From positions 310,001 to 374,000 of the forward strand of contig NZ_PYAS01000006.1 of the NCBI RefSeq assembly GCF_003014695.1: a DNA stretch of 64,000 nt, given 5' to 3'. The notes beneath the pieces were generated by a model, which did no database searches, was not told the origin of the DNA, and saw only the letters and a program-made list of their open reading frames with translations. Position numbers and translations under genes: made by a program. The DNA is from Dyadobacter jiangsuensis (GTDB taxonomy: Bacteria; Bacteroidota; Bacteroidia; Cytophagales; Spirosomataceae). Shown here one piece after another: positions 35,575 to 37,744 of the stretch (the stretch's first letter is position 1; each line of letters opens with the position of its first letter).

Positions 35575-36687
35575 ATGAAGCCACCGCTGGAAAAGTTTAT
35601 CGACCGCATTGAGGCATTACAATCGACCGGTAATGCATTGTTCCCCAAGGGCATTTTCCCGGCACAGCGGTCCAACTCCATGATAGGCTACCGGCGGCCC
35701 GACACGACGATGTTCTTCTCGGCGATCATCACCTTCACGCTGCAATCCATTCGCAGATATTGCAGTACCGAAAGTCAGGCACAAATCGATGGGATCCGCA
35801 GGCAGGTCATCGCCAATTACCCCGATTTTCAGAACAAAGACGGTTTAAAAACCTATAATTTTTGGAAAACAAAGCCCTCGCGTCATTTCCCGAATGGCCG
35901 CTGGTTTCGCCGTTTCGAGCATTTCCGCATTCCCGACGATATTGATGACACCGCATTCGCCTATTTAACCACAGATCCTTCACAAGAGGAATTGCTTTGG
36001 TTAAAAGAAAAACTGACGCTCCACGCCAATGGTACTAAACTCTGGATCAGAAATACTTATCCTGAATACAAGTCATTGAGGGCCTATTCCACCTGGTTTG
36101 GCAAGAATATGTATGTGGAATTCGATGTGAGTGTGTTGAGCAATATGCTTTACTGCATTTTGCATTACCAACTCCCGCTGAATGCACACGACGAAGCAAG
36201 CTTTGAATACATCCGCTCGGTCATTGAAACACGCCGGTATATCGATGCATCATTTCGATGCGCCCACCAGTACCCGCGCACCCCACTGATCATTTACCAC
36301 GTTTCAAGGCTCATGGTAGCATTCAAACCGGCTGCATTGGTTCCCGTTTGGGAACAGTTGGCGAACGACACCGAAAACCTTCTGAAAAACACCCGCAACC
36401 GCATGGATCGGGTTCTGCTTGCTACGTCACTTATCCGGCTCGGCCGCGCCACAGAGCGCATCCCTGTCGAGGATTTTTCTGCCACGGATTTCAAAGGCTT
36501 TTACTTTTTTATAGCCGGCCTGCTGACTGCCTATGAAAACCCGGTGCTTTACAGGCTGTCGGTTAACCCGCTAGTGCACATGCATTGGACGTGCGAGGCC
36601 CATTGCTGGACGCTACTGGCAGAATACCAGGCGCTTTGGAACCAGCAGCAGCCCAATGGCGCTTTACCGTTATCCAACCCCACTTAG
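35575..36687 (+). CDS. unknown protein with a DxDDTA motif, possibly a terpene-cyclase-like toroid
   Basis: 370 residues, no signal peptide, no strong membrane helix. It is helical throughout with repeated aromatic positions. At residues 121-127 it has D-D-I-D-D-T-A, within FRIPDDIDDTAFAYLTT. This is the Asp-rich acid motif form used by class II terpene cyclases of the squalene-hopene/copalyl diphosphate fold. The typical QxxDGxW repeats are not evident, and the protein is shorter than those enzymes, so function is not established. Other notable segments are YNFWKTKPSRHFPNGRWFRRF and YPRTPLIIYHVSRLM. The next gene, a PaaE-type reductase, starts 4 bp after its stop. TAGTTTCG just upstream (about 35558) is a one-mismatch -7 box. 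Confidence 0.6.
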   Translation: MKPPLEKFIDRIEALQSTGNALFPKGIFPAQRSNSMIGYRRPDTTMFFSAIITFTLQSIRRYCSTESQAQIDGIRRQVIANYPDFQNKDGLKTYNFWKTKPSRHFPNGRWFRRFEHFRIPDDIDDTAFAYLTTDPSQEELLWLKEKLTLHANGTKLWIRNTYPEYKSLRAYSTWFGKNMYVEFDVSVLSNMLYCILHYQLPLNAHDEASFEYIRSVIETRRYIDASFRCAHQYPRTPLIIYHVSRLMVAFKPAALVPVWEQLANDTENLLKNTRNRMDRVLLATSLIRLGRATERIPVEDFSATDFKGFYFFIAGLLTAYENPVLYRLSVNPLVHMHWTCEAHCWTLLAEYQALWNQQQPNGALPLSNPT

Positions 36688-36691
36688 GCAA

Positions 36692-37744
36692 ATGGCAGAC
36701 CACACCATATCATTGAAGCTACGCGAGGTTATCCGCGAAACCGACGACGCCAAAACCTTCGTTTTCGAAACATCCGACGGTAGCCCGCTAAACTACAAGG
36801 CAGGTCAATTCCTGACCTTTCTCATTGATATGCACGGCCACGAGGTACGTCGCTCCTATTCGATGAGTTCGGCGCCGGGCGTGGACGCATTTCCTGCCAT
36901 AACCGTCAAAAGAGTGCCCAACGGCGAGATTTCACGGTTCTGGATCGATACGGTCAAAACCGGTGATACATTCAACGTGCTGGCGCCGTCTGGAAGGTTT
37001 GTACTGGAAAAAGAAGACACAGGTGCCCGCGACATCATACTGATCGGCGCAGGAAGCGGCATTACCCCGCTTTTCTCCCTTTTAAAACAAACACTTACTC
37101 AGGATCCCGAGAGCCAGGTAACGCTGATTTACGCGAGCAGGAATGTGCGCAATACGCTTTTTTGGAATAACATTATCGAATGGCAGCAACGCTTTCCCGA
37201 ACGAATGAATGTGATTCACATTCACAGCCAGCCCACCGAGGACTGGACCGGCATCCAGGGGCGCATTAACAACACCCGGCTCGAACAGCTTGTAAATAAA
37301 TCCATTCGCTTTCAGCGAGAAGACGCCCGCTTTTTTATTTGCGGGCCGTTTGAACTGATGCGTTCTGCGGGCATTACGCTGCATTTCATGGGTTTCCGGA
37401 GCGAGCAGATCCGCAAGGAGAACTTCGTGATCCCCTCCCCGCCTCCTCCGCCACCCGTTTCGTATCCGCATCGCATTATGCTCGATTTCCGCGGTTCGAT
37501 GTACGACTTGCTCGTTCCTGCGCACTCGACCGTGCTGGATGCTGCATTAGCCGAAGGAATATCGCTTCCATACAGCTGCAAAGGCGGGCGCTGCGCCTCA
37601 TGCGCGGCCGTTTGTACGAGCGGGAAGGTACATATGAGCGTGAATGAAGTCCTCACGGATCGGGATCTCGCAGAAGGCTGGATATTAACCTGTTCGTCCT
37701 ATGTCGACAGCGACGATGTGGCGATCGAATTCAGGCAGGAATAA
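36692..37744 (+). CDS. PaaE-type ferredoxin reductase with 2Fe-2S domain
   Basis: 350 residues from ATG 36692. The frame opens at 36656 inside the previous gene, but the 4-bp gap and MADHTISLKLREV favour ATG 36692. The FAD-binding barrel has RRSYSMSSAPG (Arg-x-Tyr-Ser). The NAD(P) domain has ILIGAGSGITPLFSLLK and FFICGPFELMRS. After a proline bridge (SPPPPPPP) comes a plant-type ferredoxin domain with ligands Cys296, Cys301, Cys304 and Cys334. This architecture (FNR then ferredoxin) feeds electrons to a partner oxygenase. No oxygenase is adjacent, so the partner may be the coupled unknown protein's pathway. Confidence 0.92.
   Translation: MADHTISLKLREVIRETDDAKTFVFETSDGSPLNYKAGQFLTFLIDMHGHEVRRSYSMSSAPGVDAFPAITVKRVPNGEISRFWIDTVKTGDTFNVLAPSGRFVLEKEDTGARDIILIGAGSGITPLFSLLKQTLTQDPESQVTLIYASRNVRNTLFWNNIIEWQQRFPERMNVIHIHSQPTEDWTGIQGRINNTRLEQLVNKSIRFQREDARFFICGPFELMRSAGITLHFMGFRSEQIRKENFVIPSPPPPPPVSYPHRIMLDFRGSMYDLLVPAHSTVLDAALAEGISLPYSCKGGRCASCAAVCTSGKVHMSVNEVLTDRDLAEGWILTCSSYVDSDDVAIEFRQE

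Follow-up and report, generated by a model that had tools for sequence, protein, structure and literature searches.

A stand-alone class II terpene cyclase-like protein of Dyadobacter jiangsuensis and its predicted relation to HAD-TC-beta enzymes

Described relatives and the locus

Squalene-hopene cyclases and copalyl diphosphate synthases are mostly two-domain chains with QW repeats, and they share their acid motif with the protein reported here (gene A). The nearest described relatives of gene A are the HAD-TC-beta enzymes, namely the drimenol synthase AsDMS of Aquimarina spongiae (PDB 9mhs, 9mlo, 9m7d-f) and the fungal AstC. D331, D333, and Y427 are indispensable in AsDMS, in which Y427 hydrogen-bonds the catalytic Asp (PMC12365925), and D271, D273, N324, and Y361 are indispensable in AstC, in which N324 orients the catalytic Asp and Y361 hydrogen-bonds it (PMC13244436). 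Y373, R378, R380, R425, R513, and Y426 are the AsDMS residues that touch the diphosphate of FPP; the Y373A and Y426A variants were dead, R378A lost 96%, and the productivity of R380A, R425A, and R513A went up (PMC12365925). Since these last three substitutions raised productivity, loss of the corresponding residues says little, and only Y373, R378, and Y426 are critical. In AstC, K314 is described as critical (PMC13244436). An origin of AsDMS by fusion of a HAD phosphatase to a stand-alone TC-beta enzyme has been proposed (PMC12365925; PMC9128629). Diterpene synthases from Chitinophagaceae are the subject of one report (PMC12723471), and no publication describing the gene A family was found in the literature, mostly outside subscription journals, on class II terpene cyclases or terpene synthases of Bacteroidota or of the periplasm.

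The window, that is, the whole stretch of DNA analysed, covers 64,000 nucleotides (positions 310,001 to 374,000 of contig NZ_PYAS01000006.1) of the 8.27-Mb genome of D. jiangsuensis, which belongs to the family Spirosomataceae. The following features were assigned.

35575..36687, + strand: gene A, free-standing protein of 370 aa resembling class II terpene cyclases (TC-beta domain), start not signal-peptide-like (open reading frame, model, structure and profile matches)
35935..35955, + strand: codons of DDIDDTA, residues 121-127, with D122/D124 corresponding to AsDMS D331/D333 (alignment)
36094..36096, + strand: W174, at the column of the diphosphate-binding AsDMS Y373 (alignment)
36109..36111, + strand: M179, at the column of the diphosphate-binding AsDMS R378 (alignment)
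36142..36144, + strand: N190, corresponding to AstC N324, the residue that orients the catalytic Asp (alignment and PMC13244436)
36271..36273, + strand: Y233, corresponding to AsDMS Y427 and AstC Y361, both hydrogen-bonded to the catalytic Asp (alignment and literature)
36692..37744, + strand: gene B, PaaE-like FAD/NAD(P)/2Fe-2S reductase of 350 aa, paired with gene A in Dyadobacter-labelled loci only (Pfam/NCBIfam, locus comparison)

The initial annotation had described a 370-aa frame with D-D-I-D-D-T-A at residues 121-127, and the translation of 35575-36687 agreed with it. One loose QW-type pattern, not taken from a library, gave no match in gene A, in line with the QW repeats having been noted as absent. 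No credible Pfam or NCBIfam match was obtained for the gene A protein, either alone or among 22 family members including that of the window, and a PDB search with the single sequence returned nothing up to an E value of 1.

Predicted fold, homology, and catalytic residues of gene A

The AlphaFold2 model of gene A, built with 71 sequences as input, showed an alpha6-alpha6 barrel with a pLDDT of 86.7 and a pTM of 0.88; the underlying alignment took 70 of the 80 fetched loci after 10 close copies were dropped. The weak stretches of the model were residues 97-99, 115-117, and 362-370, and the pLDDT fell below 50 at 97-99 and 115-117, just ahead of the acid motif. The chain had been described as all-helical, which is nearly correct: the model contains 17 helices of at least 4 residues and four short strands. 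In the Foldseek search, all 10 chains with E values up to 0.001 were AsDMS, followed at rank 11 by the class II synthase Tpn2 (E = 6.7e-3). The VIA-align comparison gave a Z score of 28.6 for AsDMS 9mhs (rmsd of 2.7 Å over 286 residues), 22.2 for the Actinoplanes protein 6ij1, 22.1 for MstE (rmsd of 3.6 over 291 residues, 8% identity), 21.1 for squalene-hopene cyclase 1sqc, 20.6 for ent-CPS, 17.1 for cellobiose 2-epimerase, and about 16 for GH105; absence from the VIA-align listing was not counted against family membership. The fold predicted for gene A is thus the alpha-alpha toroid on which the cyclase proposal depended, with the cyclase domain of AsDMS nearest. The part of AsDMS covered by the model was residues 227-526 only, so that the HAD-like phosphatase domain is absent, and the single barrel in 370 aa leaves gene A without the beta-gamma double domain of squalene-hopene and oxidosqualene cyclases.

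Consistent homology was found by profile searches of the PDB. The E value of AsDMS improved from 0.0048 to 1.2e-4 and 3.2e-7 as the gene A family profile was widened from 22 to 28 and 39 rows, and AstC entered at 0.0027 with the 39-row profile. The widest profile matched four PDB sequences with E values up to 0.01, all of them HAD-TC-beta enzymes, and MstE, squalene-hopene cyclase, and copalyl diphosphate synthases were not among the PDB matches of any of the three profiles. The AsDMS match spanned profile positions 112-285, leaving the N-terminal third outside, which counts against the cyclase reading; so do the many polar residues kept in the family, which are unusual for a hydrocarbon pocket.

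The residues required for catalysis in the HAD-TC-beta enzymes were retained. AsDMS D331, D333, and Y427 aligned with gene A D122, D124, and Y233 by both HMMER and MAFFT, and AstC N324 and Y361 aligned with N190 and Y233. Identity at D121, D122, D124, D125, and T126 was complete in 50 of 50 family sequences including that of the window. In a wider set of 98 distinct core sequences (window included) and four remote relatives, D122, D124, and Y233 were each kept in 98/98 and 4/4, whereas N190 was found in 97/98 core but 1/4 remote sequences. The invariant columns among 39 diverse family sequences were L56, D122, D124, Y233, Y241, and R245. The motif first noticed in the window is therefore not a chance occurrence, and the suggestion that the protein has lost its reaction does not agree with the invariance of its catalytic residues. 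The fourth Asp of DxDD was replaced by Cys in two of the 98 core and three of the four remote sequences, in keeping with the Thr at this position in AsDMS. The remote relatives (L064-L067), which come from another family (f29), carried PDADCT, ADADCS, or PDADDT instead of PDDIDDT and had no signal-peptide-like start.

A different pattern was seen at the diphosphate site. The columns of AsDMS Y373, R378, and Y426 are occupied in gene A by W174, M179, and Q232, and R380 and R425 are likewise not kept; the alignment stops short of the R513 region. Throughout the core set, the Y373 column was W in 96/98, the R378 column M in 95/98, and the R380 column E or D in 95/98, and the variable Y426 column held Tyr in 4/4 of the f29 sequences and 2/6 of those from f5, another Bacteroidia family. 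The phosphate-binding K314 of AstC aligned with Y180. R32 was conserved in 97/98 core and 4/4 remote sequences, and the R41 column was R or K in 97/98; either residue might serve as an alternative phosphate ligand. Gene A lacks a HAD domain and the residues on which AsDMS and AstC depend for the diphosphate, so its substrate probably carries another head group than a diphosphate, or none, as judged from the alignments. The earlier idea of a changed reaction is plausible in this respect, namely for the head of the substrate.

In summary, the predicted fold and the alignments of gene A show the tested features of class II terpene cyclases, and the TC domain of the HAD-TC-beta enzymes is nearest to it; yet it is not itself a HAD-TC-beta enzyme, as it lacks both the HAD domain and the residues that are critical at the diphosphate site.

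Distribution and gene neighbourhoods

Relatives of gene A were detected in 158 of 200 Spirosomataceae genomes (146 of the 168 good ones), and the closest four of the fetched records, each carrying a Dyadobacter label, encoded proteins 88-92% identical to that of the window. A phylum-wide sample contained relatives in 19 of 395 genomes, in overlapping groups: four from the same family, ten strong ones from f5 and f13, four remote ones from f29, and two single weak hits (E values of 0.002 and 0.01) that each contain stop codons, one of them being the sole hit in its family. The AsDMS fragment, used as a query against 395 genomes of the class, matched three of them at E values of about 5e-4 to 8e-4. 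No relatives were found in viral contigs, and the window protein gave no tblastn match to plasmids. No neighbour genes were conserved across the genera of Spirosomataceae, and synteny was confined to the genus level. Some individual loci had features of their own: the record titled Flavobacterium sp. SUN052 (L148) has gene neighbours like those of a Rudanella locus (L141), and its label may be wrong; L207:3158-5556 contains a tandem pair of cyclase relatives; and an Acyl_transf_3 gene of an f13 genome (L163:6788-7927) ends 5 bp ahead of the cyclase relative.

Two pathway links were rejected. For carotenoids, the phytoene-synthase family PF00494 was present in 195 of 200 Spirosomataceae genomes, including the listed genomes of two cyclase-less genera (g2 and g13), and four genomes carried the cyclase without a PF00494 match (G023, only 78% complete; G073, a single-contig genome at 99%; G088; and G101). 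Within the window genome, the carotenoid cluster includes its own Lycopene_cyc gene. For hopanoids, no SQHop_cyclase_C match was found in the window genome at E values up to 0.001, and this model gave one match among 22 gene A family members, at a chance-level E value of 0.2.

In f5, 27 of 37 distinct relatives had a signal-peptide-like N-terminus by a simple home-made rule (not SignalP), and nine of the remaining ten had a hydrophobic start by eye. By the same rule, no such start was found in 108 relatives from the family of the window, 5 from f13, 4 from f29, or 47 partner proteins. The partner gene adjoined the cyclase gene in 10 of the 23 f5 loci first viewed; its product has about 330 residues and carries DDxxD-like and NDxxD..KD motifs; its family, exemplified by L201:6849-7835, L213:6917-7918, and L161:9056-10108, looks new. 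Among 195 f5 genomes, 48 carried the cyclase and 69 the partner (two by very weak matches); 40 carried both, and 8 cyclase genomes gave no partner match; the two genes were adjacent in 19 genomes (16 on the same strand and 3 convergent). This co-occurrence gave a Fisher p of 2.6e-15, uncorrected for relatedness and for a partner that was itself discovered through adjacency. The Pfam families most frequent among 31 diverse partners were SQS_PSY (5 members, best E = 0.024), polyprenyl_synt (4, 0.014), and Terpene_synth_C (3, 0.0036), all weak and equalled in single members by unrelated models such as AbiGii_2 (0.0035). NCBIfam returned nothing useful for the partner, and its profile matched octaprenyl-diphosphate synthase chains best in the PDB, at E values of 0.0037 and up. 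These matches are suggestive, and the partner is probably a relative of class I isoprenoid synthases. The query that matched in f5 did not detect the partner gene in 150 Spirosomataceae genomes, so the terpenoid context comes only from the relatives. Two further arrangements of these genes were observed, a UbiA prenyltransferase gene directly ahead of the partner and cyclase genes (L213:5987-6913) and a cyclase relative with two tandem partner genes on one strand (L247:5645-8879).

Gene B can start at ATG 36692, 4 bp past the TAG of gene A, and ends at 37744. Its reading as a complete FAD/NAD(P)/2Fe-2S electron donor was confirmed by Pfam matches to FAD_binding_6, NAD_binding_1, and Fer2. The gene is like PaaE in domain order and matched TIGR02160 over nearly the full length, but its score of 246.8 bits falls short of the curated threshold, 420.8 bits. 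All 33 loci labelled Dyadobacter had the gene A-gene B pair, with open frames abutting or overlapping, against none of 47 other loci within the fetched stretch (three of these contigs end less than 0.9 kb downstream). As the linkage is confined to loci with the Dyadobacter label, we take gene B for a general electron donor and genus-specific partner that became operon-linked in Dyadobacter only and lies outside the conserved function of gene A.

Possible function and comparison with known enzymes

The predicted fold, the profile homology, and the catalytic residues together support the view of the DxDDTA protein as a class II cyclase. We consider it fairly likely that gene A encodes a class II terpene cyclase of one domain, which corresponds to the TC-beta domain of HAD-TC-beta enzymes but stands alone, and that its substrate is not a diphosphate. 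In such an enzyme, a linear isoprenoid would enter the alpha6-alpha6 barrel, and D124, positioned by Y233 and N190, would protonate its terminal double bond. A cation cascade would then close one or more rings, and the last proton would be taken by D122 or a water. Activity, ring closure, and a non-diphosphate substrate are all features that we infer. On the best reading, the gene A family is a new clade within the class II terpene cyclases, one whose members have a single domain.

An ordinary prenyl-diphosphate class II cyclase, converting FPP or GGPP to a drimenyl- or copalyl-type diphosphate held by R32, R41, H104, or H242, is the less probable account. FPP is the substrate of both nearest relatives, AsDMS (PMC12365925) and AstC (PMC13244436), AsDMS itself can do without several arginines of its site (PMC12365925), and R32 is nearly invariant in the gene A family; however, the Trp and Met at the Y373 and R378 columns, the variable Y426 column, and Y180 in place of AstC K314 argue against this reading. 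The signal-peptide-like starts of the f5 relatives speak against it too, as the periplasm is not known to contain an FPP or GGPP pool. It is more doubtful still that the two genes make up a pathway of their own, with the reductase of gene B feeding an unseen oxygenase that acts on the cyclised terpene from gene A, because the constant pairing in Dyadobacter and the 4-bp gap in the window are set against the lack of a reductase in the fetched stretch of the 47 other loci and three further reductase-like matches in the window genome.

Two other readings depart from an active cyclase altogether. Gene A could be another alpha6-alpha6 barrel enzyme, such as a sugar epimerase or a glycoside hydrolase, with two aspartates transferring protons on a glycan; the fold shared with cellobiose 2-epimerase and GH105, the signal-peptide-like starts of some relatives, and the many conserved polar residues would suit it. 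This is nevertheless very unlikely, since the epimerase lies 11 Z units under AsDMS, the PDB matches of the widest profile below an E value of 0.01 are exclusively HAD-TC-beta enzymes, the AsDMS catalytic trio is invariant in the family, and the f5 neighbour gene resembles class I isoprenoid synthases. A catalytically dead cyclase fold retained as a binding protein would fit the fact that no product or pathway of gene A is known, but loss of D122, D124, and Y233 would then be expected; their retention in every core and remote sequence makes this the least credible explanation.

If the single-domain cyclase reading is taken further, the family may tentatively belong to a Bacteroidota terpenoid system not described before, a broader proposal that we regard as possible rather than probable. 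A stand-alone class II cyclase would act on a non-diphosphate isoprenoid; in f5 it would be exported to the periplasm and fed by new cytosolic class I prenyl-/squalene-synthase-like enzymes, with the rings closed outside the cytoplasm, and the clade would be a present-day equivalent of the free-standing TC-beta enzyme whose fusion is proposed to have given rise to the HAD-TC-beta synthases. If active, gene A would represent a widespread unnamed cyclase of Spirosomataceae with new products for Bacteroidota, and the signal-peptide-like relatives raise the question of whether class II cyclisation is possible in the periplasm. The gene A clade is the closest stand-alone TC-beta lineage met in this work, which was not a systematic survey, and it makes the idea of a HAD-TC-beta fusion testable.

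Compared with known systems, gene A shares the barrel fold with squalene-hopene cyclase and the copalyl diphosphate synthases (Z scores of about 19 to 22) without a sequence-profile match to these beta-gamma enzymes. The merosterolic acid synthase MstE is, like gene A, a single-domain class II cyclase with one TC-beta domain (Z = 22.1), but it is only 8% identical and gave no profile match either. AstC is linked by sequence profile (E = 0.0027) and by the correspondence of N324/Y361 to N190/Y233, and it differs from gene A in its HAD domain and in the phosphate-binding K314, which is replaced by Y180. Gene A lacks the HAD phosphatase domain of AsDMS and its residues Y373, R378, R380, R425, and Y426, and it has DxDD where AsDMS has DxDT, but the two are alike in TC-beta fold, in sequence, and in the catalytic trio.
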